Assembly (NCBI GenBank): GCA_938048925.1
Contig: CALITV010000009.1
Coordinates: 1-17,642 of the forward strand
Origin: an uncultured bacterium
GTDB lineage: Bacteria > UBP6 > UBA1177 > JAKLFG01
Direction of reading: 5' to 3'
Length of the DNA: 17,642 bases
The notes beneath the pieces were generated by a model that searched no databases, had not been told where the DNA came from, and saw only the letters and a list, made by a program, of their open reading frames with translations. Numbering within the stretch: position 1 is the first letter of the stretch; each line of letters opens with the position of its first letter. A program made the translations under genes and the position numbers. Positions 1 to 15,207 of this stretch are shown piece by piece.

Positions 1-44
1 ATCATCACCTTTCGTTTTTTCGGAGATTGACAGCAGGTTTTGCC

Positions 45-476
45 ATGGAAATGACACGGAGCCTCAGAAAAGAGGATGTCCAGCACCGCTGGTTCGAGGT
101 GGATGCGGCGGGCAAGACGCTCGGCCGCCTTGCGACCCGCATCGCCACCCTTCTGCGCGGCAAACACAAAGCGTTCTTCACGCCCCATATTGACGGCGGC
201 GATTATGTCATCGTCGTCAACGCCGACAAGGTGGTCCTCACCGGAGGGAAGTGGGACGAAAAGTTCTACTACCACTACTCAGGGTATCAAAGCGGTATGA
301 GGAAGTGGAGCGCCCGCCAGAAACAGGAGCGACACCCCGATTTTCTCGTTCTCAATGCGGTCAAGGGGATGCTTCCCAAGAACAAATTGGGGCGGGCGGT
401 GCTCAAGAAACTCAAGGTCTATGCGGGCCCCGAGCACCCGCATCAGGCTCAACAGCCGGTAAAGATCGAATTATAG
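45..476 (+). CDS. rplM: 50S ribosomal protein L13
   Basis: Structural protein of the large ribosomal subunit, an early assembly protein that binds 23S rRNA. The translation has the L13 hallmarks: W-F-E-V-D-A followed by GKTLGRLAT near the N-terminus, RGKH, the TPHIDGGDYVIVVNA stretch, and a C-terminal half with GMLPKN and KLKVYAGPEHPH. From ATG 45 it is 143 residues, close to the usual 142. The frame is open back to a TTG at 27, but that TTG directly abuts CGGAGA. ATG 45 has AGG at 35-37 with good spacing, and the family's usual N-terminus fits this ATG or the next one at 51. rpsI follows after 21 bases, the classic rplM-rpsI pair. Any promoter lies left of the window or within the first 44 bases, where I see none. 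Confidence 0.97.
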   Translation: MEMTRSLRKEDVQHRWFEVDAAGKTLGRLATRIATLLRGKHKAFFTPHIDGGDYVIVVNADKVVLTGGKWDEKFYYHYSGYQSGMRKWSARQKQERHPDFLVLNAVKGMLPKNKLGRAVLKKLKVYAGPEHPHQAQQPVKIEL

Positions 477-497
477 TTCTGAAAGGAGCAGACGGCG

Positions 498-884
498 ATG
501 GAGCAATGGTACGGGACCGGCAAACGGAAAACGGCGGTCGCACGGGTTTTTCTGCGCCCCGGCGCAGGCGAGATAACGGTCAACGGCAAAGAGCTGACGG
601 AACACTTTCAGACCGAGGCACACCTCAAGAAGGTGTTCGCCCCGCTCCGCATCACGGGAACCGAGAAACGCTTCAACGCGCTCATCACCGTGACCGGTGG
701 CGGCATCGCGGCACAGGCCGATGCGGTGCGGCACGGCATCAGCCGTGCGTTGTGCGCCTTCAACAAAGGACTCCGTCCGGCGCTCAAGAAAGAGGGGTTC
801 CTCACCCGCGACGCCCGTGTCAAGGAGCGCAAGAAGTACGGGCTCCGCGGCGCTCGCAAGCGTCCTCAATACAGCAAACGCTGA
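498..884 (+). CDS. rpsI: 30S ribosomal protein S9
   Basis: Small-subunit ribosomal protein whose C-terminal tail reaches the P-site tRNA. The 128-residue translation starts with the typical YGTGKRKTAVARVFL block, has the VTGGG motif and GISRAL in the middle, and ends in the basic RDARVKERKKYGLRGARK...YSKR tail; the terminal Lys-Arg is characteristic. Length matches the family (about 128-130). A strong ribosome binding site, GAAAGGAG at 481-488, sits 9 bases before the ATG. It is co-transcribed with rplM (21-base gap), and a hairpin with a T-run lies just after its stop codon. Confidence 0.98.
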   Translation: MEQWYGTGKRKTAVARVFLRPGAGEITVNGKELTEHFQTEAHLKKVFAPLRITGTEKRFNALITVTGGGIAAQADAVRHGISRALCAFNKGLRPALKKEGFLTRDARVKERKKYGLRGARKRPQYSKR

Positions 885-892
885 TACTCGGG

Positions 893-940
893 ACCTCCCG
901 CGGGAATGGCAATCCTTTGGTAACCGCGGAGGTGGTTTTT
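893..940 (+). terminator. Intrinsic terminator (or attenuator) between rpsI and metK
   Basis: The arm ACCTCCCGCGG (893-903) pairs with CCGCGGAGGT (924-933) with one bulged C, leaving a loop of about 20 bases. GG and five T follow at 934-940. The hairpin begins 8 bases after the rpsI stop and ends 33 bases before the metK ATG. The simplest reading is the end of the ribosomal-protein transcript. Because it also lies in the metK leader, an attenuator role cannot be excluded. The loop could form small alternative pairings, such as AACC at 922-925 with GGTT at 934-937. Confidence 0.6.
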
Positions 941-973
941 CGTGCTCACTCACCGCAATAACGGAGGCCTTTC

Positions 974-2134
974 ATGAAAAATCGTTCGTTTGTCTTCACT
1001 TCCGAATCGGTTACCGAAGGACATCCCGACAAAGTCGCCGATCAGATATCGGACGCGATACTCGACGCCATCATCGAGCAAGACAAGAACGCCCGCGTTG
1101 CTTGTGAAACATTCATTACGACCGGACTCGTGATCGTCGGCGGCGAGATAACGACCGACGGTTGGGTGGATATCCCCGCGGTGGTCCGCAACACCGTGCG
1201 CGAGATCGGCTACCTCGACACCAAGACCTGCCGGTTCGATGCCGACACCTGCGGCGTCGTCACGAGCATAGACAAACAGTCTCCCGATATTGCCCAAGGC
1301 GTGGACCGGGAAAACAAGGACGAGCAGGGGGCGGGTGATCAGGGCCTCATGTTCGGTTACGCGACCGACGAAAACGCCGACTATCTGCCCACACCGATAC
1401 TGCTCGCCCACCAACTCTGCCACCGGCTCGCCGAGGTGCGGAAGAACAAGACCGTCCCCTTCTTCCTGCCCGACGGCAAGTCGCAGGTAAGCGTCCGCTA
1501 CGAGGACGACCGCCCCGTCGCGGTGGACAAGGTTGTCGTCTCGACCCAACATCTCGAGAGTGCAACGAACGAGCAGATCCGCGAGGCGGTCATCGAAACG
1601 GTCATCAAACCGATCATCCCGGCACATCTGCTCCACGCAAAGACCGAATACTTCATCAACCCGACCGGCCGCTTTGTCATCGGTGGTCCAGTCGCCGACA
1701 CCGGCCTCACCGGTCGTAAGATCATCGTGGATACCTACGGCGGCTGGGGCCGCCACGGCGGCGGCGCTTTTTCGGGAAAGGACCCCTCGAAGGTGGACCG
1801 CTCCGCCTCTTACATGGCGCGCTATGTGGCCAAGAACATCGTCGCGGCGAAACTCGCCAAACGCTGTGAAATACAAATCGCCTATGCCATCGGCGTCGCG
1901 CGGCCTGTCTCGGTGTATGTGAACACCTTCGGAACCGGCGCCGTTGACGAAACGGTCATCGAAAAGGCGGTGACCGAGGTATTCGACCTGCGTCCGGCGC
2001 GCATCATCGCCCATCACGATCTTCTGCGGCCGATCTACAAGCGGACAGCGGTTTACGGCCACTTCGGGCGCGACTGGATGCCGTGGGAACGCACCGACAA
2101 GGTGAAGGAACTCATCGCTGCCTGCGGCCGGTAA
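974..2134 (+). CDS. metK: S-adenosylmethionine synthase
   Basis: Makes S-adenosylmethionine from methionine and ATP in the cytoplasm, releasing phosphate and pyrophosphate. The 386-residue length is typical (about 384). Visible motifs in order: [19 protein letters not shown] at residues 10-28, carrying the active-site His17 and Asp19; [10 protein letters not shown]; the [15 protein letters not shown] signature; [22 protein letters not shown]; and the glycine-rich [17 protein letters not shown] loop. The ATG at 974 has GGAGG at 963-967. bioD starts 21 bases after its stop, so metK, bioD and bioF are probably one transcript. No SAM-I riboswitch core is apparent in the 89 bases upstream, only the hairpin described at 893-940. 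Confidence 0.98.
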
Positions 2135-2155
2135 CCGACTCCACAGGGGGGATCG

Positions 2156-2896
2156 GTGCGGGGGATCTTCATCACCGGAACCGATACCGGCGTCGGTAAG
2201 ACGCTCGTCGCGACGCTGCTCGTTCGCGGGCTTCTTGACCGGGGTTTTCCTGCCGTCCATTTCAAACCGGTCCAATCGGGTTTTGTCGCTGTGAGCGGCC
2301 GCGAATATCCGGCCGATCTCGCTTTTTCATGGAGCCTCATCGAACCTGAAGGCGACCTTGCCGCTTACTGCGCGCAGCGGTCGCTCTACGCATTCCGTGA
2401 CCCGATTGCCCCCGACCACGCCGCCGAAAAAGAGGGAAGAGGGATAGAGCCGGCCGCCATCGTCGCGCGGGCAAAAAAGTTGGCCAAGGCGCACCTCCTC
2501 ATCACCGAAGGGGCAGGCGGTGTCGCGGTGCCGCTGACGGCGAACTATCTCATGGCCGACCTCATCGCCGATCTCGGGCAACCGGCGCTTATCGTCGCAC
2601 GGCCGGGACTCGGAACGCTCAACCATACCCATCTGACGGTCGCTTACCTGCGACAACGGGGCGTTACGGTTGCCGGTATCGTCATTTCGGGGTACGACCC
2701 GAACGACCCAATAGCCCAGCGGAACCGGAAACAACTTTCCGAGATGAACGGGACGCCCACCGTCGGCATTCTGCCGCGCATTATCGGCCTCGACACCGAA
2801 CGGCCCGGCTGGCTGGCTGGGGTGGTTGCCGGCACGCTCCAAGAAAAATTCGATTGGGATACCATTATGGCCATCATAAAGGGACCAGCACGATGA
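2156..2896 (+). CDS. bioD: Dethiobiotin synthetase
   Basis: ATP-dependent closure of the ureido ring: 7,8-diaminopelargonate plus CO2 gives dethiobiotin, the penultimate step of biotin synthesis. The 246-residue protein has the P-loop GTDTGVGKT at residues 8-16, the KPVQSG motif at 37-42 with its conserved Lys, a Y-x-F-x-x-P-x-x-P segment near 79-86, and the catalytic/nucleotide EGAGG at 118-122. The start is GTG, supported by AGGGGG at 2145-2150; no nearby ATG places the P-loop properly. Its TGA overlaps the bioF ATG as ATGA, pointing to translational coupling. Confidence 0.96.
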   Translation: MRGIFITGTDTGVGKTLVATLLVRGLLDRGFPAVHFKPVQSGFVAVSGREYPADLAFSWSLIEPEGDLAAYCAQRSLYAFRDPIAPDHAAEKEGRGIEPAAIVARAKKLAKAHLLITEGAGGVAVPLTANYLMADLIADLGQPALIVARPGLGTLNHTHLTVAYLRQRGVTVAGIVISGYDPNDPIAQRNRKQLSEMNGTPTVGILPRIIGLDTERPGWLAGVVAGTLQEKFDWDTIMAIIKGPAR

Positions 2897-4029
2897 CCGA
2901 TTTTATTTCAAAAGAACTACAAAATCTTTCTGAAACAGATCTCAAGCGCAATCTGAGAGAGTTCATACCCGATGGATCGGCCCTGCGCGGCACGATTGAC
3001 GGACGGCGGGTCGTTAATTTCTCGTCCAATTCCTACCTTGGGCTCGATAGCCACCCCGCACTCAAAAAGGCAGCGATCACGGCGCTTGAAAAGTGGCCGG
3101 TCGGCGCGTCGGCGTCACGGCTCATCACCGGCACCGGCCCGTGGGTGCGCGAACTGGAAGAGAAGACCGCCGCGTGGAAAAAGCGCGAAGCAGCGCTCTA
3201 TTTCGGATCGGGATACCTCGCCAACATCGGTATCATCACGGCACTTGCCGATCGCGACACCGACCTTTTCCTTGACCGATTCAACCATGCGAGCATTGTG
3301 GATGGCGCCATCCTTTCACGGGCGCGTTTGCATCGTTACGCACACAACGATACCAAAGAGATAGAGCGGCTCCTTGCCCGCTCGACCGCCGCGCGGAAGA
3401 TCGTGGTCACCGACACGATCTTCAGTATGGACGGCGATATTGCGCCGATGCCCGAGATCGTGGATCTCTGCGAGCGTTATGGTGCACTTCTCGTCGTGGA
3501 CGAGGCGCACGCAAGCGGCGTTTTTGGTAAGAGCGGCGCCGGCATCATGGAACTGTATGGCCTTACCGGCAAGGCCTTTCTCGAGATGGGAACCTTCTCC
3601 AAGGCCTTGGGGGTCTCGGGCGCCTATGTCGCCGGAGACCGAAAAACCATCGAATACCTTGTCAATCGTGCCCGCAGTTTCATCTATACGACGGCCACCC
3701 CACCGATGGTGTGCGCCGCATGCGCATCTGCGCTCGATATTGTCTCCTCACCAGAGGGAGAAGACCTGCGCGAACGGCTCCGGAACCACCGCTCGGCCCT
3801 CCGCGCCATCGTCCCAACCGCGATGACGCAGATCATACCGATCATTGTCGGCGATACGGACGCAACGGTGCGACGCTCCGAGGATTTGCGCGATAAAGGG
3901 TTGCTCGTCATGCCGATTCGACCTCCCACCGTGCCGCAGGGAACGGCGCGTCTCCGTATCTCGCTCTCGGCGGGACATTCACCGGAGGAAGTAGCGATGC
4001 TTTGTGCACTTCTTCGGTCGTTTTCTTGA
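2893..4029 (+). CDS. bioF: 8-amino-7-oxononanoate synthase
   Basis: PLP-dependent alpha-oxoamine synthase condensing pimeloyl-thioester with L-alanine to form KAPA, the first ring-building step of biotin synthesis. The protein has 378 residues. Motifs: NFSSNSYLGL near 42-51, the GASASRLITGTG block at 71-82, FNHAS with His132, VVDEAHASG with the PLP-nitrogen Asp203, and TFSKALG with the Schiff-base Lys237. The frame is open to an ATG at 2854, but ATG 2893 matches the family N-terminus, overlaps the bioD stop by ATGA and has AAAGGGA at 2878-2884. The related enzyme 2-amino-3-ketobutyrate CoA ligase is the main alternative; the partner bioD makes BioF much more likely. No clear terminator follows. 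Confidence 0.95.
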   Translation: MTDFISKELQNLSETDLKRNLREFIPDGSALRGTIDGRRVVNFSSNSYLGLDSHPALKKAAITALEKWPVGASASRLITGTGPWVRELEEKTAAWKKREAALYFGSGYLANIGIITALADRDTDLFLDRFNHASIVDGAILSRARLHRYAHNDTKEIERLLARSTAARKIVVTDTIFSMDGDIAPMPEIVDLCERYGALLVVDEAHASGVFGKSGAGIMELYGLTGKAFLEMGTFSKALGVSGAYVAGDRKTIEYLVNRARSFIYTTATPPMVCAACASALDIVSSPEGEDLRERLRNHRSALRAIVPTAMTQIIPIIVGDTDATVRRSEDLRDKGLLVMPIRPPTVPQGTARLRISLSAGHSPEEVAMLCALLRSFS

Positions 4030-4090: not shown

Positions 4091-5731
4091 ATGCGAGAAA
4101 AGATCGTCGTTTTTCTGTTTCTTGTTTCTTTGCCGTTTGTGGCTTTTGCTCAAACGTACTCGATCACCGTCGTCAAAACCGGGATAGGCTCAGGGCGCGT
4201 CTATGACAATGGTCTCTCCATCGATTGCGGTTCGGTATGTACCGGCACCTACCCCCAAGAACTAATAGTTATCCTTTTTGCAGATGCCGATCCCGGATCA
4301 CAATTCTACGGCTGGTCGGAACCTTGTTCGGGAACGGGAAACTGCGTCATCACCTCCGGAACCGATGTGACCATCACCGCCCGATTTGGCTGCATAGAAG
4401 ACGATATGCGGATGGGGCTGCCCTGCGGCCTCAACGGTCGCGGCATCGAAACGGAATACTGCATTGATGGAGAATGGGTGTCTTTCTGTGGAGATCCTGA
4501 TGTGTGTGCCATCGGGGACCGGGAGTGTGTCGAGAACACCTTTCGTCACTGTGAATACAATGCTGGGGCAGACCGTTATGAGTGGATATCTACCGAGTGC
4601 GTTGATGATCTTATGTGTACCCAAGACCTTTGTCATGAAGTAGCGGGATGTATCTTCGATCCTGCTCCTCAGGCTGGTATGCTCTGCCGCGGTGTCGCCG
4701 GTCCGTGCGACGAAGCCGAATACTGTAATGGCGTGGACAGTACTTGTCCGCCCGACAGTATCAAGATGGCCGGTGAGGTGTGCCGCCCCTCGACGGGCAC
4801 CTGTGATGCCGACGAACGCTGTGACGGCAACAGCATTACCTGCCCGCCTGAAAACTATACCTCAACCAACGGACTTTCTTGTAAAGATGCCTTCGACTAC
4901 ACCGAGAACGAGTCCTGCGCCAACGGTCTCTGCCTCGGCACCGAGGTCATCGGCTCCTGTTCGAACGCCTACACCGCCGACACCTTCCCTTATACGCTTG
5001 TAAGCACCACCGTCGGCCGGCCAAGCCACCTCACCACCTACGGAGCCAACTGCCCGGTAACCGATGCACCGCTCGGCGATGCTGTCGTTCATGTCGCCAT
5101 GAACGCAGGGGTCCAATACACGATATCAATCGTGCGCCACGGCGGCTGGACCGGTTTCATGGCCATCATTCCCATTTGTAGTATTCTCTACACCAACGCG
5201 ACCTGTCTCAATCAGAACGCGACCGAGGACTCGTTCACCTACACGCCGCTCCTCGGCGGCAACGCGACGCTCGTGATAGAGTCGCTCAGCGGCACCGGCG
5301 ATTTCACGCTCACCATCGAGCGCGAGGAGACGCCGCAACCCGACGATCCGGTCACCGACGACGATGTCATCCTACCCGACGAACTGTTCCCCGATGAGGA
5401 GTTGCCCGACGAGGCCGTCGTTGACGATGTTCAGGACGACATTGTTGACGAAGAGGAAAGCGACGACGCGACGATCGTCGCCGACGACGGTTCCCCCCTT
5501 ACGGACGACACCGTGAAACCGGACGACGCGACGGTCATCACCGACGACGGCACGGCGGTCAAAGACGATTCTTCCGCCGTCACCGACGAGGAGACCGAAC
5601 AGCCCGACGAAACCGACGACGAAGCGGCTGACGAACTGCTCGAAGACAACGATCTCATCCTTTCCGACACCGGGATCTCCGACACCGACAAAACCAAAGA
5701 GAGCGGCTGCGGCTGTTCGCTGGTATTCTAA
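4091..5731 (+). CDS. Secreted Cys-rich protein with InlB-type repeat, disintegrin-like motifs, acidic stalk and GCGCSLVF C-terminus
   Basis: Function unknown; surface or exported by design. Residues 1-20 form a signal peptide with an AFA|Q cleavage site. Residues about 22-100 match the divergent InlB-B-repeat style (VVKTGIGSG, IDCGSVC, FYGWS, CSGTGNC). Residues 101-290 are Cys-rich, with two disintegrin-like units at 199-222 and 231-254 (pattern CRxxxGxCDxxExCxGxxxxCPP). Residues about 290-410 look like a PPC-type beta-sandwich ending in GTGDFTLTI. Residues 412-533 are almost entirely Asp, Glu, Val, Thr and Ala, a likely extended stalk, and the last nine residues are SGCGCSLVF. AAGGGAGG at 4077-4084 supports the ATG. 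The 61-base gap after bioF suggests a separate unit or weak read-through. The N-terminal third is visibly less GC-biased than the acidic region. Confidence 0.85.
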   Translation: MREKIVVFLFLVSLPFVAFAQTYSITVVKTGIGSGRVYDNGLSIDCGSVCTGTYPQELIVILFADADPGSQFYGWSEPCSGTGNCVITSGTDVTITARFGCIEDDMRMGLPCGLNGRGIETEYCIDGEWVSFCGDPDVCAIGDRECVENTFRHCEYNAGADRYEWISTECVDDLMCTQDLCHEVAGCIFDPAPQAGMLCRGVAGPCDEAEYCNGVDSTCPPDSIKMAGEVCRPSTGTCDADERCDGNSITCPPENYTSTNGLSCKDAFDYTENESCANGLCLGTEVIGSCSNAYTADTFPYTLVSTTVGRPSHLTTYGANCPVTDAPLGDAVVHVAMNAGVQYTISIVRHGGWTGFMAIIPICSILYTNATCLNQNATEDSFTYTPLLGGNATLVIESLSGTGDFTLTIEREETPQPDDPVTDDDVILPDELFPDEELPDEAVVDDVQDDIVDEEESDDATIVADDGSPLTDDTVKPDDATVITDDGTAVKDDSSAVTDEETEQPDETDDEAADELLEDNDLILSDTGISDTDKTKESGCGCSLVF

Positions 5732-5743
5732 CAGAAAGATTCT

Positions 5744-6502
5744 TTACTTCTTTGACTTTTTCGGCATCGGGGCAAAATCGGTCGCATACCACTTGAAGTG
5801 GAGTATCCGTTCCGGCTGAAAGATAAAGAAGGCGATACGGGCACGCGCCTCGCCGGCGGTAAAGCAGTAGTAGTCGCCGAAATCCTTGGCATCGAAAAAA
5901 ACATCCAAGTCCTGCAAACCGATACGAAACTTCCCGGCGGTCCCTTGGAACTGGATGAGATCGAGATCTTCGACCGTTGCCCAGACAATCCCCTTGAAAT
6001 GCTCGTTTTTCGGTTTGCGCGGGATTACCTGTATCTTGTAGGCGGGAACCCCCTTTACCATTTCGACAGCCACAACGGTGCGAAGGTACTCCTTCTCGCC
6101 TCTGCGATCGAAAATCGGAATACCCGGCTTTGTCTCGTGGGGATCGTAATCATCGGGATCGGCCGGTTTGCCATCCACTTCGTAAGAAAGGGTCTTGTAT
6201 TCGAGGTCCTCGTAGAAGTCGTCCCAGCGGGTATAGACCACCTTCTCGGTCTTCACCAACTCCATCGTATCTGGTTTGTACCACTTGACTTCAAGGTGGC
6301 GCGTGGACCGACAGCCGGCGTATTTGTCATACATTTTCGAATACTTATCCGTCAGTTTCGCGATGATCTCTCGCGAGAGTTCCGGCGTTATTCTTTCGGG
6401 GATTACCGGTCCGGCGGTGACGGCGTCATCGTCGGAGGCAGATTCGGCAGCCGCGAGAAACCCCAGCGGAAGGAAAAACGAAAGGAAGAGGAGATATCTC
6501 AT
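5744..6502 (-). CDS. Exported LolA-like / outer-membrane lipoprotein-sorting-like protein
   Basis: The 252-residue protein has a clear signal peptide (MRYLLFLSFFLPLGFLAAA, cleavage near residue 19). The mature part lacks transmembrane segments and reads as a beta-rich periplasmic protein. Features near residues 150-190 (GVPAYKIQVIPRK, then HFKGIVWATVEDLDLIQFQG) resemble the LolA-like fold found in 'outer membrane lipoprotein-sorting protein' homologues, where such domains bind lipid or lipoprotein acyl chains. That assignment is by pattern only. The frame is open to a TTG at 6526, but ATG 6502 gives the clean signal peptide and has GGAG ten bases upstream. It is the last gene of the minus-strand run and converges on the 4091-5731 gene with only 12 bases between stop codons. 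Confidence 0.75.
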   Translation of the reverse strand: MRYLLFLSFFLPLGFLAAAESASDDDAVTAGPVIPERITPELSREIIAKLTDKYSKMYDKYAGCRSTRHLEVKWYKPDTMELVKTEKVVYTRWDDFYEDLEYKTLSYEVDGKPADPDDYDPHETKPGIPIFDRRGEKEYLRTVVAVEMVKGVPAYKIQVIPRKPKNEHFKGIVWATVEDLDLIQFQGTAGKFRIGLQDLDVFFDAKDFGDYYCFTAGEARARIAFFIFQPERILHFKWYATDFAPMPKKSKK

Positions 6503-6578
6503 CGCCCTACGACTCCGGTGCGGCAAAAAGGCTCTGTGCTCTCTATCCGAAAACGGAAAAAAGTCAATGAAATGGCGA

Positions 6579-8396
6579 TTAGAACAGAAGCGAGCATCCG
6601 CATCCGCCGCAGTTACCTTTCGGCGTCACGGATTCGCTGTCCGGCGTATCGGGAAGAAGAAAATCTTCGTCGCCGGAAAGGATATCTTCCGTTTCTTCGA
6701 GGATCAGTGCCTCCTCATCGGGTGCTATGCCCGTTTCGTCCACTTCGCTCGTGTCGGCCGCCTCGTCTGCCACGAGCGAATCTTCCGCGGACAGCGGTTC
6801 GTCAGGAATCTCGGCGACGCACTGGCCGGTCGTCTCTTCACACAGAAGCCCTTCGTCGCAATACCCGCAGACGCCGCCGCAGTTGTCGTCGCCGCATTCG
6901 CGACCGACGCAGTCGATGATGCAGGTGGGAGGCTGGCCGGTCGCCCAGCCGTTCAGAAGAACTCTCGTCAGTCCAAGCGCCAGAGAGCCGCCGATGCAGA
7001 TCTCGCCGATGGCGGTTGGGCCATCTATCGCTTGAATATACGGGGACGGCATATCATTCGCCCAAACCCACCCGAGCAGTTGGTCCCAAGGGAAATAGTA
7101 GCAGGGTCCCATCGTAAGCCCTGCGGCGATAAGTTCTGTCGTATCGTAGTTCTTCTGGTTGAGTCCGCCGATCTCAAGGACGAAAGGGGGATCGGGAATG
7201 GTGCAGAGATTGAGCACCGAAGACCCGGCGACCGCCGTTTCTATCTGCTCGAATCCGCGTTGCGTCATTTTGACGAGGTCATAGTATTTGTCTTCGCCTC
7301 CCGGCGTCGTCCCCATGTCGAACCATTCGCCCCACCCTTGGAATATCTCGCAGTATATCCCGTCGGCGGCCTCCTTGCCGTGGGCGGCGCCGGCGATCTC
7401 CCCCAGCACGTTGAAAGGCCTCCGTAGTCCCAGCCGACGGGCTTCCTGCGTCCCGTCGAGTTTGATTATGCCGCCGCCGCGAAGCCGCCAGTAGAGGCCA
7501 CCGAGCCAGAAGGCGAGGAACTCTCGGTCGGCCTGCGTGAGCGAGGGATAGGGCAGTTCGTTGCGGGCTCGCGAGATGGCGCCGAGCCGCAGTTTTTCCT
7601 TGTGGTATTCGGTTTCACCGGAGATGCGCAGGTCTTCGATGCGGTCGCGCAAGGCGGCCGCCTCGGCGATAAGGATATCTATCCGTTCTTCGGCCAGTTC
7701 TCGTTTCGCCGGGACGAAGCAGGCGGCGTTGTCGGCGATCAAGTTCCGTGCGTTCAGGAACGCGGCGAGTTGCCCATTCAGCAGCGGCATCAACTGGTCA
7801 TAGCGCAGTTTCCGCAGAATATCACGGAGCCGCGGCACGAAATCGTCGGGGAGAAGACCGTCGTAGAGCGGCGGGAACTGGGCGAGCGTGCTCCCCATGA
7901 CACCGATGAGGTCGAGCACCGTATCGGTATTCGAATCGTCCACGACCCCGGGCGGGTAATCGAGCACATAGCGCTCCGGCTCGGCTGCATCAGCGCAGGC
8001 GGTGCGGTTCTCGACCGCGGCTTGTATCTGGGCGTAGATATTCTGACATTCCGCCGATGCACCCGATATGAGCATCTGCGGCAAGAAAAATCCGGCGTGC
8101 CCCGCGCAACTGTCGAGGTCTCGTGGCCACGAGTAGCCGCTCTTGTCGGTGGCAACCATTCGGCCGAGCAGATCGAGCGCATCGGGGAAGAGCCACAAAT
8201 ACACCGGTCCATCGAGGCCTACATTACTCATCCGGTCAACCGGCAGATCGGGGAGCCCTTGCGAGTATTCGCTGATCAGGCTCTGCACCTCGGCGGGCTT
8301 CTCGGCAAGGTTCACATCGAAAAGATATGGCTGTTTCTGAGCCGCCTCAAGGGCACTGCATAACAGGATCGTGATCGCGCAAAGGATTCTTTTCAT
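6579..8396 (-). CDS. Large secreted protein with GRxCGDDxCGG Cys module, acidic stalk and GCGCSLLF C-terminus
   Basis: Function unknown. The 605-residue protein begins with a signal peptide (MKRILCAITILLCSALEAA). Residues about 30-490 form a largely helical domain that I do not recognise, with scattered Cys and a WFDMGTTPGGEDKYYDLV stretch near 358-375. Residues 492-526 are a Cys module containing GRECGDDNCGGVCGYC, a repeat type frequent in deltaproteobacterial/Myxococcota surface proteins. Residues 530-590 are an Asp/Glu-rich stalk, and the protein ends GGCGCSLLF, almost identical to the 4091-5731 gene. The ORF extends to 8420, but ATG 8396 has GGGAGGG eight bases upstream and yields the signal peptide. 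It lies 45 bases after the flavodoxin-like stub and 76 bases before the LolA-like gene. Confidence 0.82.
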   Translation of the reverse strand: MKRILCAITILLCSALEAAQKQPYLFDVNLAEKPAEVQSLISEYSQGLPDLPVDRMSNVGLDGPVYLWLFPDALDLLGRMVATDKSGYSWPRDLDSCAGHAGFFLPQMLISGASAECQNIYAQIQAAVENRTACADAAEPERYVLDYPPGVVDDSNTDTVLDLIGVMGSTLAQFPPLYDGLLPDDFVPRLRDILRKLRYDQLMPLLNGQLAAFLNARNLIADNAACFVPAKRELAEERIDILIAEAAALRDRIEDLRISGETEYHKEKLRLGAISRARNELPYPSLTQADREFLAFWLGGLYWRLRGGGIIKLDGTQEARRLGLRRPFNVLGEIAGAAHGKEAADGIYCEIFQGWGEWFDMGTTPGGEDKYYDLVKMTQRGFEQIETAVAGSSVLNLCTIPDPPFVLEIGGLNQKNYDTTELIAAGLTMGPCYYFPWDQLLGWVWANDMPSPYIQAIDGPTAIGEICIGGSLALGLTRVLLNGWATGQPPTCIIDCVGRECGDDNCGGVCGYCDEGLLCEETTGQCVAEIPDEPLSAEDSLVADEAADTSEVDETGIAPDEEALILEETEDILSGDEDFLLPDTPDSESVTPKGNCGGCGCSLLF

Positions 8397-8441: not shown

Positions 8442-8729
8442 TCAACGCCATGTTTTTTGGCAAGAAAACTTTCTGGTTGAGTCCAAGATAGTTCCGATAC
8501 CTCCGCTCGAACCAGTTCCGTGGCTCTTTTCCCTCCGGACCGGCGGCATCGTGCGTCGCAAGGTCACGAGGAGTGGCGATTTGGGGCGAATTTTCTTTGA
8601 ATCCTCGTTCACATCGAGGTTTGCGAGCGATACAGGTCTCCCGCTCCGTTCCAGCGCCTCGGCAAGCCGCGCCGCAAGCCACGCGGTGTTGCCGGTGCCG
8701 GAAAAATATCTGATCGCGATAAGGCTCAC
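8442..8729 (-). pseudogene. Truncated flavodoxin-like N-terminal fragment
   Basis: A 95-residue reading frame whose first 40 residues look like the start of a flavodoxin-fold protein: IAIRYFSGTGNTAWLAARLA, with the FMN-phosphate loop SGTGNT after the first beta strand and an amphipathic helix after it. EFR1-type flavodoxin/ferredoxin proteins begin this way. After about residue 43 the sequence turns basic and low-complexity and no flavodoxin core follows in any frame; at least 100 residues are missing. The start is GTG, overlapping the TGA of the LamG lipoprotein as GTGA, so it is still placed for coupled translation. Most likely a decayed or deleted gene; a short functional peptide is the less likely alternative. 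Confidence 0.55.
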
Positions 8730-10525
8730 GGGATCGGCTCGGTCTGGCAGAGCGCCGAACAGCCGTCGCCGCTCACCGTGTTGCCATCGTCACAGAGTTC
8801 CCGCCGATGGCGCGGGAGGAGCACCAGTTGATCTGGGGAAAGTGACCTCCCGTAGACCTGTACTTCGTCAATGAGTCCGTTTACCGGAGAAAGGGCACAG
8901 CCGCCGCCGATCGTGAGCGGCCCGCTCGAAAGCACCGGCACGCCGGTAAAAGGTGTCTCGGCGCGCACCTCGCCATCAATGAGCAGACGGGCGGTCGCAC
9001 CGTTGTAGGTTGCCTCGATGCGGTGCCACTGCCCATCGGTGACCGCGCTGTCGGAGAGGAGATGGAGCCATTCGGTTGACTCTATCTGGAAGAGTACCTT
9101 ACCGGTTCCCGGTTCGATCCAGATGCCGTAGTTGCGATTGAGGCACGAGGGTTCGCTCTTACCGAGAATGCGCACCCAATTACTCGGAATAACCGATGTT
9201 TTCAACCACAAACGAATTGTCATCGCCGCGCCGAGATCGAGCCATTCGCTGTGCGGCACCGTCACCTGCCCCGCCGCACCGTTGAACGAGAGGGCGTTCC
9301 CCCAGCGACCTTCTCCCCACTCGACACCGACGAGCGACCCCGTAAGGTTGTTGCCCGAGGCGTCGAAAACGGTGTTACCGCCCCCTTCGTCGAACGAGAA
9401 ACGCGCCCGCGCACTCGCAATCTCGGCTAGTTCCCACGCCTCGAGCACCCGATTGTAGATGCGGACATCGTCTATCCACCCGGGGAATTTCTGGCCAACG
9501 AGCACCCCGCCGTTGGTGTCGGCCGGCACGACATCTACTTGCGTCTCGCCGTGCCACACCCCATCCACGAAGATCTTCATCACCGATCCATCGTATATCC
9601 CCAACACATGGTGCCACCTGCCGTCAACGATCGAGGTCTGTGAGAACACCCCCTTCCAATCCTCGGGGATAGCGCTTGTCAACGAAAGAAGCACCTTCCC
9701 CTCGTTCCCGGGGTTGTCGGATCCGGCGACGAAGAGGCCATAGTTACGCACAAGATCGCCGTCCTTCTGGAGAATACCGACATACCCCGACGGCATAACA
9801 GAGAGTTTCACCCACGCCGCAACGGTGAACACGGTCAGTTTCAGCGATGCGTGTTCCGTCACCGCCACCGTCCCGCCGCCCGCAAAAGCAAGGCCATTTC
9901 CGAACCGTCCGGGGGCCCATGTCGCGCCGGTTATCACGCCGTTATTACCAAAACCGGAACGGTCGTCCGCCGTTTGACCCTTCCCCTCATTGAACGGGAG
10001 CAGCAGCACCGCACCGGGGTCGGTGAAACGCACACCGTCACCGCACCGGTTGAGCAGACAATCGTTGCGACAGGCATCGTTGTCGTCCTTGTTGCCGTCG
10101 TCGCACTCTTCGCCCTCGTCGAGCGTCCCGTTGCCGCAGGGAGACGGCGGTTCGTCATCATCGGGAAGCAGCCCGTCCTCGTCGGGTGTGAGGGTATCGT
10201 CCGCGCCATCGGGCGCCGTCTCTACCTCCGTGGTCGTTTCTGTATCACCGCTATCGTCGTTATTGTCCGTTTCATCGGGGAACACCACCGCTTCACTCTC
10301 GGTCACCTCCGTCCCGTCATCGCCGACAACCGTGCCATCGGGCCCCGGCGTCGTATCTACCATCGTCGGATCGGCACACCACCCCTCTTCGGTACAGGTC
10401 TGGCCATCCGGACAGTCGAACGAGGTAATGCACGGGATCGGTTCCTGCTTTTTCCCCGCGCAAGAAACCGCAACGGCGAAGAAAATTCCCACCATCACCT
10501 TCACAAAGATAAACCGTTTCATCAT
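8726..10525 (-). CDS. Outer-surface lipoprotein with acidic linker, DUF4215 Cys repeats and two LamG-like domains
   Basis: A 599-residue lipoprotein of unknown ligand. The lipobox is AVSC (Cys22), followed by Ala rather than Asp, consistent with outer-membrane sorting by the E. coli rule. Order: Cys knot CITSFDCPDGQTC at 32-50; Asp/Glu/Thr-rich linker 55-128; DUF4215 (myxococcal Cys-rich) repeat at 130-160 with ECDDGNKDDNDAC; half of another repeat (RCGDGVRFTDPG, 160-171); LamG/concanavalin-like domain at about 172-366; a second at 373-567 (both with FDE/FNE, DGxWH, IDDVRIYNR/IDEVQVYGR landmarks); and the other DUF4215 half, ELCDDGNTVSGDGCSALC, at 576-593. LamG domains usually bind glycans or proteins. 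ATG 10525 has GGAG eight bases upstream, inside the end of the OPT gene; the two genes are separated by 3 bases. Confidence 0.88.
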   Translation of the reverse strand: MMKRFIFVKVMVGIFFAVAVSCAGKKQEPIPCITSFDCPDGQTCTEEGWCADPTMVDTTPGPDGTVVGDDGTEVTESEAVVFPDETDNNDDSGDTETTTEVETAPDGADDTLTPDEDGLLPDDDEPPSPCGNGTLDEGEECDDGNKDDNDACRNDCLLNRCGDGVRFTDPGAVLLLPFNEGKGQTADDRSGFGNNGVITGATWAPGRFGNGLAFAGGGTVAVTEHASLKLTVFTVAAWVKLSVMPSGYVGILQKDGDLVRNYGLFVAGSDNPGNEGKVLLSLTSAIPEDWKGVFSQTSIVDGRWHHVLGIYDGSVMKIFVDGVWHGETQVDVVPADTNGGVLVGQKFPGWIDDVRIYNRVLEAWELAEIASARARFSFDEGGGNTVFDASGNNLTGSLVGVEWGEGRWGNALSFNGAAGQVTVPHSEWLDLGAAMTIRLWLKTSVIPSNWVRILGKSEPSCLNRNYGIWIEPGTGKVLFQIESTEWLHLLSDSAVTDGQWHRIEATYNGATARLLIDGEVRAETPFTGVPVLSSGPLTIGGGCALSPVNGLIDEVQVYGRSLSPDQLVLLPRHRRELCDDGNTVSGDGCSALCQTEPIP

Positions 10526-10528
10526 AAA

Positions 10529-12334
10529 CTACTCTCCACGGAGTGTTCCCAAAATAAGCAAAAACACCCCCGCAAGGCTCTCACCGGCAATGAGACCCGA
10601 TGCGGCGGGCACTATCTGTTCCTCCCAGTTCTTCTTTTTCCACGAGATGACGAGCACGACGAGTGCGCCGAGAAACATCGCCAGACACGATGAGAACGGT
10701 ATCGTGAAGGCGAGACCGATCCCCATCGCCGATGGAGTGAATCGGGCGAGTTTCGGCGCAAACCGCTCGACGAGCGGTATCGCGATGCCGAGGAGCGCCC
10801 CGACGAGAATCGCCCAGCGGATAGAGACATCGAGGCTCGCGATACCCTCCGACAGGAGTTTCGCGACCGATGCCCAGATCTGCGCCGCCGGCGCCGGAAA
10901 CATCTGGGTACCGAGCGCCTCGGGCCCCGGCACGAGGACATAGAAGACCGGCACCACGACGAAGGTACCCGCGAAAACGCCGATGAACTGCGCGAGGAAC
11001 TGTTTACGCGGGTTGGCGCCCAGCAGATAGCCGCACTTGAGGCCGGTGAGGAGATCGGCCGAGGCGCCCGCGGCATCGGCGGTGATCGAGGCGGCCATGA
11101 GGTTCGGCACCATCCGTTTCGGGACCAGCACCCCGTAAACCAGTTGGGTCAGTTTACCCATCGCCCCGACCGGTGTCGTATCGGTCTCGCCGGTGGCGCG
11201 GCAGGCGACCATCGCAAGGACGAACGAAAGAGCGATGGCAACGAGCGACATCACGATGCCGACCTCGAACACGAAATACATGATGAGACAGATGCCCGCC
11301 GACACGACCGCCATACCGGCGGCGAACCACGACCCGGGGACCTCGATCTGTTCATAGGCGGTAAGTTGTCTCTTTTGTTTACGAAAAACATCTCCGAGTC
11401 CCGCAAAGGTCCGCATGATGACGCGCCACTGAAAGGCGAAGGCGGTAAGTCCCGCCATGACCATGACCGACGCACCGAACCAGAGACTCCATTTGACGAT
11501 CGTACTATATAAAAATGTACCCTCCTCGCCGGGGTGGATGATACCCTGCGACGCGAGCCACGGCGCGACAACGGCATAGTTGAGCACCGCGCCGAAGAGG
11601 ATGCTCCATGCGGTGCGCCACCCCATGAGCGCCCCGCCGCCCACCAGAAGCAGACTCGACTCAAGCGATATCGAGAACTTCTGCGCCCACTGGCCGAACA
11701 CGAAATACTCATAGCGGACAAGCCCCAACAGATCTTCGCCGAGCATTTTATTGAGGATACCGACACCCGCCGTCGCAAAGAGCACCTTCGCGTTGCGCAC
11801 CCCCTCGACACCCGACGAATAGAGACTCTTCAAGGTTTCGGCCGATGCCGTCCCTGATGGAAACGGCAGTTTCTCGACATTGATCATCTGCCGTTTGAGC
11901 GGTATCGCCATGAAGGTGCCGAGAAGCGCGATGAGCATGATCCACAGGCCGAGCACCACGATGTTGAGGTGGTGCCCCGTGACCAAAAGATATGCGGCGA
12001 TCGCCGAGACGAGCGTCCCGCCCGTCGTATAGCCCGACGCCGAGGCAAGCGATTGCATGATGTTATTCTCGAGGAGCGTCATGTTCTGCGTGTGGAACAC
12101 CTTCGCAATGACATTCCATATCGCGAACGAGAGGATGACCGCCGTTATCGCGACCCCGAACCCCCACCCGGTCTTGAGCCCGATATAGAGGTTGGTGAGC
12201 GACATGAAGCCGCCGAGCAGGATCCCCGTCACGACGGCACGGAGGGTCAGTTGCGGCTTATCGCCCTGATAGACCGTTTCGAGCCACCGTTGTTCCTCCT
12301 CCTCGGGGGTCGGTTTCCGTTCGTAATCGCTCAT
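10529..12334 (-). CDS. OPT-family oligopeptide transporter
   Basis: Inner-membrane secondary transporter of the OPT superfamily, whose members import peptides or metal-chelate ligands; the substrate cannot be read from sequence. The 601-residue protein is hydrophobic throughout, with many membrane segments. Family marks are NLYIGLKTGWGFG (about residues 48-60), LLENNIMQSLASASGY (87-102) and KLPFPSGTASAETL (about 155-170), close to the bacterial 'putative oligopeptide transporter' subgroup. The frame reaches ATG 12346, but ATG 12334 is preferred because GGAG lies six bases before it; the longer form would add four residues. It begins 15 bases after the small membrane protein's stop codon. The position behind pdxA does not identify a substrate. 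Confidence 0.92.
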   Translation of the reverse strand: MSDYERKPTPEEEEQRWLETVYQGDKPQLTLRAVVTGILLGGFMSLTNLYIGLKTGWGFGVAITAVILSFAIWNVIAKVFHTQNMTLLENNIMQSLASASGYTTGGTLVSAIAAYLLVTGHHLNIVVLGLWIMLIALLGTFMAIPLKRQMINVEKLPFPSGTASAETLKSLYSSGVEGVRNAKVLFATAGVGILNKMLGEDLLGLVRYEYFVFGQWAQKFSISLESSLLLVGGGALMGWRTAWSILFGAVLNYAVVAPWLASQGIIHPGEEGTFLYSTIVKWSLWFGASVMVMAGLTAFAFQWRVIMRTFAGLGDVFRKQKRQLTAYEQIEVPGSWFAAGMAVVSAGICLIMYFVFEVGIVMSLVAIALSFVLAMVACRATGETDTTPVGAMGKLTQLVYGVLVPKRMVPNLMAASITADAAGASADLLTGLKCGYLLGANPRKQFLAQFIGVFAGTFVVVPVFYVLVPGPEALGTQMFPAPAAQIWASVAKLLSEGIASLDVSIRWAILVGALLGIAIPLVERFAPKLARFTPSAMGIGLAFTIPFSSCLAMFLGALVVLVISWKKKNWEEQIVPAASGLIAGESLAGVFLLILGTLRGE

Positions 12335-12349
12335 AGGGTGCTCCATAAC

Positions 12350-12697
12350 TCAAAGATATTCCGTTATAATCAGCGTATAGACATTCACCTTGAACCACAG
12401 TTTTCCATAGGCATAGAACAACATGGCAAGCAGAGCAAGAAACATCACGAAAAACCCGATCCGCCGCCCGAGAAACTTGGCTCCTGTCCGCATAAGGAAC
12501 TTCGAAAGTGTCGTTGCCCAACCATCGAGATAACTGTAAAGGGGCACGAGCACGACCACGAGCACTACCATCGTAATCGCTGTCGCAGTAACCGGAGAAA
12601 ATTCGGCGCGCATCTGGGCAATGACGAAACGAGAACAGATATTCGCCAGTAGATTCGCCGCAAGCACCGAAACGAACATAAGGAGAAATTTGGTCAT
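12350..12697 (-). CDS. Small membrane protein, three predicted TM helices, unknown function
   Basis: A 115-residue protein I do not recognise. Three hydrophobic stretches stand out at about residues 2-24, 38-56 (very Val/Leu-rich) and 80-101, separated by short charged loops including a basic RTGAKFLGRR segment, so a three-helix inner-membrane protein is likely. The frame is open far upstream (to 13111) but only as a shadow of pdxA. ATG 12697 overlaps the pdxA stop as ATGA, which fixes the start and implies translational coupling. It sits directly before the OPT transporter (15 bases from its stop to that start), so an accessory role to the transporter is conceivable but unproven. Confidence 0.78.
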   Translation of the reverse strand: MTKFLLMFVSVLAANLLANICSRFVIAQMRAEFSPVTATAITMVVLVVVLVPLYSYLDGWATTLSKFLMRTGAKFLGRRIGFFVMFLALLAMLFYAYGKLWFKVNVYTLIITEYL

Positions 12698-13629
12698 AGC
12701 GCCGCCCCCCCCATTTCGAGCGCCCACGCCGCCGCCGCCGCGAGGCTCCTTTCCGCCGCGATCCCTTTTCCCGCAATATCGAAGGCCGTACCGTGGTCCG
12801 GCGAGGTGCGCACCACCGAAAGGCCGACCGTTACATTGATCCCTTCGTGGAACGCGAACATCTTGAAGGGGGCGAGCACCTGATCGTGATAACACCCCAC
12901 AAACAGATCGACGCCGGCAGCAAGCCCCTGCGCGAACAAGGTATCGGCTGCGAGCGGCCCCTCGATCGCGATTCCCTTGCGCCGCAGCAAAGTCACGGCT
13001 GGAACGAGCACCGACACCTCTTCGGCCCCGATCGTGCCCCCTTCTCCGGCATGGGGATTGAGACCCGCCAGCCATATCTTGGGCGACCGCCGCTTCCACC
13101 GACGGAACCACTCGTGAACGAGCGCCACCTGCCGCACGACCAGATCGGTCGAAAGCGCTGCCGGCACCGCCGCAAGCGGAATATGCCGGGTGAGCGGCAA
13201 CACCATGAGCCGGGAACTGCCGAGCACCATCGCCACCTCGTCGGAGCGTTTCCCGTCGAGCCGCGCGAGCAGTTCGGTATGCCCGGTAAATCCGGGACGC
13301 GCAAGGGAAACCGCCTCCTTCGCGAGCGGCAGGGTAACGAGCGGCACACCGCGCTGTTTTGCCTCCCGGTAGGCGACCTCGACCGCCTGTGCCGCCGCCT
13401 CGCCGGCGATGGAAGACACCTTCCCCGGTTCAGGGTGGTAGCGCACATTGAGATCGGCGACCGCAAAATCGAAGGGGATACCGATCTCCCGCGACCAGTA
13501 GAGGAGCGCCGTTCGATCGCCGACACACAGCAGCGGCAGATCGGGACGAGCCTTGTGAAACCTCAGTAAAATCTCGGGGCCAATACCATTGACATCGCCA
13601 AGACTCACCACCAATCGCGGGTCACTCAT
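12694..13629 (-). CDS. pdxA: 4-hydroxythreonine-4-phosphate dehydrogenase
   Basis: NAD-dependent oxidation of 4-phosphohydroxy-L-threonine in the DXP-dependent pyridoxal-phosphate pathway; the product is condensed by PdxJ. The 311-residue protein is slightly short (usual about 330). Motifs: GDVNGIGPEI at 11-20 (family normally GDPAGIGPE), GHTE at 116-119, and the three divalent-metal histidines in TRHIPL (His149), NPHAGEGG (His193) and YHDQ (His248). VGLSVVRTSPDHGTAFDIAGKG follows near 268-289. The ATG overlaps the stop of the upstream M23 lipoprotein as ATGA, and its own stop overlaps the next start the same way. Paralogues of PdxA act on other hydroxyacids; the intact metal site and length favour PdxA itself, but pdxJ is not in view. 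Confidence 0.92.
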   Translation of the reverse strand: MSDPRLVVSLGDVNGIGPEILLRFHKARPDLPLLCVGDRTALLYWSREIGIPFDFAVADLNVRYHPEPGKVSSIAGEAAAQAVEVAYREAKQRGVPLVTLPLAKEAVSLARPGFTGHTELLARLDGKRSDEVAMVLGSSRLMVLPLTRHIPLAAVPAALSTDLVVRQVALVHEWFRRWKRRSPKIWLAGLNPHAGEGGTIGAEEVSVLVPAVTLLRRKGIAIEGPLAADTLFAQGLAAGVDLFVGCYHDQVLAPFKMFAFHEGINVTVGLSVVRTSPDHGTAFDIAGKGIAAERSLAAAAAWALEMGGAAL

Positions 13630-14954
13630 GGCACCACTATCTCCTGCTCACGATCAGCGCAGTTGTCGTATTCATCGCAGGCAATCACCGTCACCACGCG
13701 CTGTCCCTTCCCTACCGTCGAGCGGGTGATCGGCTTTGCCGGCGCCCCTCGTTCATCGAAGGCCGTTACCTCGATGAAGAACCGGCGCGGTCCATAGTCG
13801 CCTGTGCTTGCCATACCGGCATCACCGCAGAGGTAGTAGTCGCAGACAAACTCTTCCTTCACCGTCGAGAGCCCCGTGACGAAATCGTAGCCCGGCCGTT
13901 CGAGGAGAAGGTTCCCCTTTTCGTCCGTTACCCGAACCGCAGTACGGCGCGGCGGAAGCGGCCACGGATTGTTGTCAATAAGGTCGTAAGTCTCTATAAC
14001 GACACGGAAATCCTGCGTTATCGCCGCCGGATCGAGCACCCTCGTGCGCCCGTCATCCACCAGCGTCACCGCGACAATGTTGGGGGGTACGGTGTCGGGA
14101 TGCGGCAAAAGCATCTGGAGCCCGTCGAGCGGCAAGAAGTCGCGGGTAAAGGTATTGAGATGGAGGTGGTGGAACGGTTCGTTGGTGTAGCCGGTTTCGG
14201 TCACCGTCCACGAGACGATGAAGCCAATCTCGGCACCGACCGGCAGTATTTCGGCGCTCCTTTTCGCCTCTTTCACCGCCTCGCTCACGCTGTCGGGATC
14301 TATGTGATGGTACTGGATCGTCAGCCCGTTCACCGTTTCGATGACCACCTCGAAGTACATTCGGTTTTTCGCGGTTCCGCCCGAAAGATCGTAGTAATCG
14401 TAGCGCACCACGCGCCCCGGCAGTATGTTGTACACGACCGAGTTTTCGGGCATCACGATATCCACGCCGGGATGGAAGTACTCGTCGCCGGCAAGCGGCG
14501 AGTAGTCTTGGAAACTATTCACCGTGTGGCCGACCGGGTGTGGTTTGTCTTGCGGCGCAAAGGGCCACGACATCGTCCGCTCGGGAACGAGCAAGAAGGC
14601 ATCGAGGGCTACGCGGTGCTCCGGAAGCGCGCACCGCCGCTCGGCCGTTCCTTGTCGAATCGTCACGACCGGCGCCGCTGTCGGATCGCCCGCTGGACAT
14701 TCTTCAGGAATCTTCGTCTGTTCGAGTATCTCGTAAACCGCGGCAAGATCATCGGCATGCATCACGAACGAGGCATCTGCGGTGCCGACGGTGCGATTGA
14801 CCAGCCCATCCGCCAAAAAGAGCATCGCCGACTGGCGCGAGGTCTCCCGCTCGATGGAAACGAAAACCGCCGGCTCGGGACGCCGGTCGGTCGCCGCGCT
14901 GTCGCACGAAACAAGGAACAGGAGGAACACCACCGCACCGATGGGCACGACCAT
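13626..14954 (-). CDS. Lipoprotein with M23 (LytM-type) metallopeptidase domain
   Basis: Probable cell-envelope peptidase or LytM-fold regulator. From ATG 14954 it has 442 residues: a short signal with lipobox LVSC (Cys17) followed by Asp18, which in E. coli retains lipoproteins in the inner membrane. The M23 core spans about residues 140-275, with HPGVD (His161...Asp165) as the HxxxD zinc site, YHHID (His216/217) as the additional His, and HHLHL (His263-x-His265) as the HxH motif. All expected ligands are present, so activity is plausible. Residues about 290-442 form a beta-rich C-terminal domain with two Cys pairs. GGAGG directly abuts ATG 14954, whereas GTG 14948 has the same GGAGG at ideal spacing, so the true start may be GTG. 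Open frame continues to 15149 only as a shadow of rpsU. Confidence 0.85.
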   Translation of the reverse strand: MVVPIGAVVFLLFLVSCDSAATDRRPEPAVFVSIERETSRQSAMLFLADGLVNRTVGTADASFVMHADDLAAVYEILEQTKIPEECPAGDPTAAPVVTIRQGTAERRCALPEHRVALDAFLLVPERTMSWPFAPQDKPHPVGHTVNSFQDYSPLAGDEYFHPGVDIVMPENSVVYNILPGRVVRYDYYDLSGGTAKNRMYFEVVIETVNGLTIQYHHIDPDSVSEAVKEAKRSAEILPVGAEIGFIVSWTVTETGYTNEPFHHLHLNTFTRDFLPLDGLQMLLPHPDTVPPNIVAVTLVDDGRTRVLDPAAITQDFRVVIETYDLIDNNPWPLPPRRTAVRVTDEKGNLLLERPGYDFVTGLSTVKEEFVCDYYLCGDAGMASTGDYGPRRFFIEVTAFDERGAPAKPITRSTVGKGQRVVTVIACDEYDNCADREQEIVVP

Positions 14955-14991
14955 CCTCCGAAAATGAGAGAGAAAGCGAAAGGAGCGGGAA

Positions 14992-15207
14992 CTACACGCG
15001 CCGTTTGCGCATATTCTTCCGGCGACGCCGTTCGGCCTCTTCGCGTTTCCGCCGATCGCGGACACTCGGCGGTTCATAGTGCCGCCGCTTTTTGAGCTCC
15101 TTGAAAAGTCCTTCGAGCGCCATCTTCTTCTTGAGGACTTTAATAGCACGCTCGAGATCGTCCGATACGGTCACTTCGAGAGGCCCGATGATCTTCGCAC
15201 GCTTCAT
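14992..15207 (-). CDS. rpsU: 30S ribosomal protein S21
   Basis: Small-subunit protein near the anti-Shine-Dalgarno region, involved in initiation. The 71-residue translation has the S21 pattern: VTVSDDLERAIKVLKKK, then FKELKKRRHYEPPSVRDRRK and a very basic end (RRRRKNMRKRRV). Length is typical. AAAGGTGG lies upstream of the ATG, and a plausible promoter is seen at 15280-15307. It is the first gene of the long minus-strand run, 37 bases ahead of the M23 lipoprotein; bacteria often place rpsU with primase and sigma-factor genes, so this neighbourhood is unusual. Confidence 0.95.
   Translation of the reverse strand: MKRAKIIGPLEVTVSDDLERAIKVLKKKMALEGLFKELKKRRHYEPPSVRDRRKREEAERRRRKNMRKRRV

Follow-up and report, generated by a model that had tools for sequence, protein, structure and literature searches.

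A short C-terminal cysteine tag on exported proteins of an uncultured bacterial order, probably a reduced signal of the MYXO-CTERM kind

Two exported proteins with one ending

We analysed a 17,642-nucleotide stretch of DNA from an uncultured bacterium (the window; contig CALITV010000009.1 of GenBank assembly GCA_938048925.1), in which two genes for unrelated exported proteins close with nearly the same short cysteine tag. The stretch forms contig C9 of genome G000 (1.47 Mb, 65% complete, 293 contigs). Protein 1 (546 aa, 4091–5731, plus strand) starts with a signal peptide of about 20 residues (MREKIVVFLFLVSLPFVAFA; 4091–4150, cleavage site placed by eye), and its two Pfam matches, disintegrin-like and InlB-B-repeat-like, are both under the Pfam cut-off. 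Its Asp/Glu-rich stalk (5324–5701, start approximate) immediately precedes the tag SGCGCSLVF, which with its stop codon occupies 5702–5731 (tag 5702–5728, stop 5729–5731). Protein 2 (605 aa, 6579–8396, minus strand) is built in the same order, with the signal peptide MKRILCAITILLCSALEAA, a stalk (approximately 6609–6812) and, directly behind it, the tag GGCGCSLLF at 6579–6608 (codons 6582–6608, stop 6579–6581); judging from their tails, homologues of this protein end in MYXO-CTERM elsewhere. Neither protein matched any NCBIfam model at E ≤ 1, TIGR03901 included.

The two endings had been picked out in an earlier note made from the sequence alone, and the reading frames do end as it described. 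That note had also held that the stalk always borders a Cys that could serve as an anchor. This is true of proteins 1 and 2 and only roughly true of a third stalk-bearing surface protein (8726–10525, minus strand), which has no C-terminal tag: its acidic stretch begins about 30 residues past the lipobox-like Cys (FAVAVSC) at its N-terminus. The same protein has two LamG-like stretches (PF13385).

Occurrence of the tag and properties of its carriers

The genomes compared were 28 of the phylum (family f4, G025–G027, included), 25 of the order and, as family f1, G000 with four others. A strict pattern (C-G-C-x-[LF]-x-F-stop) matched four times in G000 and 6, 12, 5 and 14 times in the other four f1 genomes, while the reversed pattern, our control for chance, matched in none of the five. 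Searches that tolerated mismatches returned mostly CGC followed by [ST]-[LVIM]-[VLIMA]-F. A relaxed two-Cys pattern gave 72 matches in the five f1 genomes, 5 in two f2 genomes and none in the remaining 21 genomes of the phylum, with a control of 0 across all 28; one tag, CGCNLIF of G006, was caught by the strict pattern alone and missed by the relaxed one. A one-Cys pattern (G-C-S, four hydrophobic residues and a stop, where the stop pattern TRR also admits TGG) matched 191 times, in 25/25 order genomes and against a control of 0; outside the phylum, in 90 genomes, it stayed at chance level (12 matches versus 11 for the control). The two patterns together yield 4 to 23 matches per order genome. 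Because the reversed patterns found nothing in f1 or the order, we rejected a chance origin of the tag. Proteins 1 and 2 are unrelated and the tag codons vary at synonymous positions from gene to gene, so recent local duplication of DNA is not the source either; the earlier note had worried that the motif might be confined to two locally duplicated genes, and the 72 two-Cys and 191 one-Cys matches dispel this.

We viewed 20 one-Cys ends in 18 order loci (L255–L272). Sixteen close frames of at least 100 aa behind an acidic or polar stretch, and all eight of these frames that are complete at the 5′ end have a signal-peptide-like start. At L260, L266 and L272, one-Cys ends (KSDGCSMLFI and similar) sit on frames of 9–34 aa, which may be frameshifts, remnants or small peptides.

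A scan of 84,980 species for GCGC[ST]LxF, with Leu as CTN only and with G000's own records possibly excluded, returned 31 matches in 28 stretches, of which 24 were in the f1 genomes G001–G004 and 7 elsewhere. These seven were not accepted as a wider spread beyond f1: four end frames of 10–13 aa, and two have TGG where a stop would be needed. The last one, L034, closes a frame of 117 aa that is open at the contig edge and lacks an acidic stalk, and it looks like chance.

To characterize the carriers, we assembled 98 distinct two-Cys open reading frames of at least 100 aa from stretches chosen for matches and from the window (75 complete at the 5′ end) and compared them, using the same signal-peptide script, with 347 untagged genes, those for membrane proteins among them, from a 400 kb stretch of G003. 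A signal peptide was called in 62/75 complete tagged frames versus 69/347 untagged genes (Fisher P = 7e-25), or in 69/75 versus 117/347 (P = 1e-21) with the ribosome-site condition dropped; as the tagged set includes orthologues, the P values of this comparison are too small throughout. Ten of the 13 script-negative tagged frames have a signal peptide by eye, and L060, L116 and L122 do not. An equal presence of the motif in cytoplasmic proteins, which would have spoken against a sorting role, is thus not what the 62/75 and 69/347 counts show. The acidic fraction ahead of the tag is at least 0.2 in 94/98 frames, with a median of 0.33 compared with 0.14 in untagged exported proteins. The 400 kb stretch itself, which was not chosen gene by gene, holds eight relaxed two-Cys matches; six end called genes, and these six, together with one one-Cys gene, all have a signal peptide (one by eye).

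Lipoboxes are depleted among the carriers: by script, 2/62 tagged and 37/69 untagged signal-peptide proteins have one (P = 3e-11), or 4/69 and 43/117 with the ribosome-site condition dropped (P = 1e-6). The suggestion that N-terminal lipid and tag are alternatives thus survives as a strong tendency and fails as a rule, since 5 or 6 of 72 tagged proteins also have a lipobox; a strict either-or is ruled out. The clear cases are L068, L079, L094, L098 and L120, three of which exceed 1,500 aa, and such proteins may be attached at both ends. Pfam searches of ten tagged proteins found subtilase, peptidyl-arginine-deiminase-like, metallophosphatase, CAP-domain and DUF11 or PKD proteins among them, and an HExSH motif is conserved in one tagged family, A1. 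A subfamily (L061:2144-5278, L163:4556-7561 and L164:3219-5123) carries Cys-richer tags (DCCCGCSLVF, PCCCACSVIW, PCCCACSVVW) with no strongly acidic stalk ahead.

Long signals in homologues and the candidate machinery

A search with family A1 against 5.8 billion proteins gave 243 matches, of which the best 120 were examined. The 48 closest are members of the clade, and a CxC tag ends 45/45 of them once the partial sequences P0005, P0034 and P0044 are excluded. In the next range (P0049–P0096), most tails have a Cys motif, then a helix, then a basic tail; most of these proteins are unnamed, and the names that occur are MYXO-CTERM or TIGR03382 protein, Myxococcaceae, Myxococcota, Myxococcales and Deltaproteobacteria. 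P0060, P0061 and P0064 in this range have one-Cys tags, two of the tails being those of G015 and G014 (g6 of family f2). Among the matches listed, those ranked after P0099 mostly have no C-terminal extension. Protein 2 gave a similar picture with 43 matches: the nearest end in GCGCSLVF, GCGCSLAH, GCGCTVIRTFP, GCGCRIVL, GCGCTMII and GCSCSIISFGSM, and the remoter ones mostly in a Cys motif (GCGC, GCSC or GCAC type) with helix and basic tail. Across the 45 A1 members, mean pairwise identity is 0.65 in the tag, 0.62 in the body and 0.28 in the stalk. Exported carriers, acidic stalks and MYXO-CTERM at the same position in homologues lend good support to the earlier note's proposal that the tag is a C-terminal signal for surface anchoring in which a Cys matters.

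Long forms also occur in the same genomes as the tag. Searched with TIGR03901, 26 of the 28 genomes gave no match, and G003 and G001 yielded a single long-form protein apiece. As a census this model is misleading (2/28 genomes, versus 24/25 order genomes by homology search): with the G003 long-form protein as query, family members were found in 25/25 order genomes, and their loci provided 32 long tails from 24 of them. The locus in G006 ends short, in DGCSTLFID. The f1 long tails have their core in common with the short tag and read, for example, GCGCSIVG, ACGCSVVG, ACGCTLVA or GCSCSIVT, then a helix, then RR after the first two and RRR after the last two; ACGCTLVA-helix-RRR is G000's own (L312, G000:C146). 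Most f2 long forms have a single Cys (GSCAVTAV, GGCALSVM), again with helix and R/K. By BLASTP, 18 short-tagged frames are related to the G003 long-form protein, several of them from G003 itself.

An aromatic residue ends the f1 short tag where the f1 long forms mostly continue with Gly, Ala or Thr, and to judge from these tails the short tag resembles a long signal truncated right after CGC[ST]-Φ-Φ (Φ, hydrophobic). Readthrough or frameshifting into a hidden helix was considered and rejected: 285 frames past the stops gave three hits, two of which are the next gene's signal peptide. The stop codons behind the tags are TAG (35), TAA (33) and TGA (28).

A CPBP protease is present in 28/28 phylum genomes. 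The one conserved in the order matches Mrt_core at E ≤ 1.1e-21 in 24/25 order genomes, and for nine of these proteins scanned, the top NCBIfam match is MrtP or MrtC, with Mrt_core among the first three (74–94 bits, under the curated cut-offs) and weaker matches to the MrtJ and MrtS protease models. Active-site motifs EExxxR and HxxxN are in place in 16/16 sequences viewed, and in 3/9 loci viewed the protease gene has tagged neighbours no more than a few kb away. At E < 1e-20, Mrt_core is found in 27/28 phylum genomes versus 9/90 others. The earlier note's doubt about a myxosortase-type route is not supported, since the order has both a myxosortase-like CPBP (24/25) and long forms with helix and basic tail.

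A second f1 CPBP (L156:6530-7165, L157:5738-6373) matches the Mrt models weakly in the two copies scanned and is not preferred as the tag enzyme; two f4 CPBPs likewise match weakly. In L156 and L157 the second f1 CPBP lies between large-protein genes, one with a different Cys end (DCGSGGEGGC or DCGSGGEGEC), and further CPBP matches were seen at G002:C161, G004:C43 and G000:C44. In f4, the tag search gave no two-Cys match, one one-Cys match versus one in the control, none that is clear in about 311 kb of G026 and no TIGR03901 match, so that no substrate of the f4 protease was recognisable among G025–G027 by short tag or by that model.

GspD, the sole part of the type II secretion system (T2SS) searched, is above cut-off in 25/28 phylum genomes, G000 included. 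We also asked whether Lgt might be a lineage-specific acyltransferase, and counted 3–7 matches to the Lgt family (PF01790) per genome across the phylum, in f4 too. In each of four f1 genomes, one such match falls in a frame of 1,241–1,267 aa (G003:C12, G004:C52, G002:C91, G001:C59), where the Lgt-like domain may be fused to a large partner.

A probable reduced sorting signal and its alternatives

MYXO-CTERM is described in PMC11980579 as a generic GCGC motif with a helix and an Arg tail; the Cys residues are needed for cleavage by MrtX, lipidation is predicted, perhaps by an Lgt-like enzyme, and the T2SS delivers the proteins to the surface. The sorting endopeptidases compared there all handle tripartite signals, the helix keeping the substrate in the membrane in its model. 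Our tag resembles this system (TIGR03901; MrtX, MrtC, MrtP) in its GCGC-type Cys signature after a low-complexity linker and in its Sec-exported carriers, two families of which have MYXO-CTERM homologues, and an Mrt-like protease (below the curated cut-off) and GspD are present in the order's genomes. It differs in lacking the transmembrane helix and Arg-rich tail and in having only about 3–8 residues past the last Cys. Since a helix and an Arg tail were looked for and are absent, we did not file the tag as MYXO-CTERM. GlyGly-CTERM, with its rhombosortase, is likewise a C-terminal surface anchor with T2SS export (PMC11980579), and differs in its signature, its tripartite build and its rhomboid enzyme.

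Weighing these observations, we consider the tag to be, with fair probability, a C-terminal signal of MYXO-CTERM type for sorting to, and anchoring at, the surface, pared down to its Cys signature and without helix or basic tail. Its position, core motif and cargo and the enzymes present make the MYXO-CTERM route the most likely one for it to feed. The whole protein would be exported by Sec, in keeping with its signal peptide. In the periplasm, [GA]-C-G-C-[ST]-Φ-Φ-F would be recognised at the free C-terminus (in sister groups, the one-Cys G-C-S-Φ-Φ-Φ-Φ), with the hydrophobic-aromatic terminal stub standing in for the absent helix. A Cys would then be modified, an Lgt-like enzyme most likely attaching a lipid to it, after which the order's myxosortase-like CPBP would probably cut off the short stub past the Cys in the fashion of Rce1 on a CaaX box. 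By analogy with the MYXO-CTERM model, the T2SS may then bring the folded protein onto the outside of the cell, and there the acidic stalk would keep it clear of the membrane.

Several observations weigh against this reading. G000, at its 65% completeness, has no Mrt match, and all 24 order CPBPs score below the curated Mrt_core cut-off (NF040914; 78–87 bits, cut-off 100). Family f4 has a myxosortase-like protease (93, 99 and 104 bits) yet no recognisable short tag. The long forms alone could account for the protease being kept, which leaves its pairing with the tag a proposal, and the tag has no helix of the sort that, in the MYXO-CTERM model, keeps a substrate in the membrane to be lipidated. 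The strongly conserved last Phe would be odd if the stub were merely discarded. Some matches are not clear genes (4/20 one-Cys ends viewed close frames of 9–34 aa, and two of the eight matches in the G003 stretch are a 63-aa frame and a 294-aa frame without a clear start), and by eye 5, perhaps 6 (L085), of 72 tagged signal-peptide proteins already carry a lipobox.

The conserved Phe bears on a more specific form of the proposal. Rce1, a member of the CPBP family, removes -aaX from the CaaX box. The tag is like a CaaX box in that its Cys stands just a few residues short of the C-terminal end and in the protease family (PF02517), and unlike it in that its carriers are exported rather than cytosolic, that nearly all have at least four residues after the last Cys (usually four, CaaX having three) and that no prenyltransferase is shown. 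The f1 stub is kept as Φ-Φ-F where the long forms differ, which suggests that the stub itself may be read, as in CaaX. Helix-less exported proteins might thus be recognised in the periplasm through the seven or eight residues at their C-terminus, then modified on the Cys and trimmed by the myxosortase-like intramembrane protease, a soluble CaaX-like signal outside the cell that we put forward tentatively, leaning slightly against it. JDVT-CTERM with MrtJ and Synerg-CTERM with MrtS are also Cys-type C-terminal signals with CPBP proteases, both tripartite with a helix; the tag has no helix.

The same stub counts against a signal that is in effect pre-trimmed, its Cys being lipidated or otherwise modified with no cut and the myxosortase serving the long forms alone. 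Such a signal would explain why the short tag stops where the core shared with the long forms stops, so that almost nothing is left to remove, and the long helix forms of the same genomes would alone keep the protease; a Φ-Φ-F stub conserved in f1 against mostly Gly, Ala or Thr in the long forms suggests instead that an enzyme reads it, and we regard this explanation as unlikely. Less likely still is a non-covalent or disulfide tag, in which CGC and the free hydrophobic C-terminus form a docking signal for the T2SS, a PDZ-type domain or a surface partner, with no lipid. It needs no membrane helix and accounts for both the terminal aromatic residue and the 5 or 6 carriers with an N-terminal lipobox, but leaves unexplained the depletion of lipoboxes among tagged proteins and the MYXO-CTERM-type signal with the same place and core in homologues and paralogues. 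A resemblance to a truncated long signal would also fit a decayed end of an ancestral MYXO-CTERM without present function. We give this almost no credence, since identity in the tag matches that in the body and far exceeds that in the stalk (the 0.65, 0.62 and 0.28 above), and since the tag changes codons synonymously and sits on many unrelated carriers.

If the CaaX-like reading is right, a sortase-type signal that is not tripartite operates alongside classical long forms that share its core and its genomes; no earlier description of a helix-less Cys tag surfaced in a literature search of partial coverage. A natural tag without helix next to long versions separates recognition of the Cys motif from tethering in the membrane, and makes testable which residues the MYXO-CTERM acyltransferase and myxosortase read and whether lipidation needs the helix. 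The tag also serves as an annotation rule for surface proteins of this uncultured order, and may offer a minimal surface-display tag for Gram-negative cells.

Between both tagged genes lies a further exported protein (5744–6526, minus strand) with no tag and no Pfam match, outside the signal discussed here. Housekeeping genes flank the tagged ones: named by eye, they resemble rplM, rpsI, metK, bioD and bioF on one side (3–4029), and on the other (10529–15149) genes for an oligopeptide transporter, pdxA and an M23-like peptidase.

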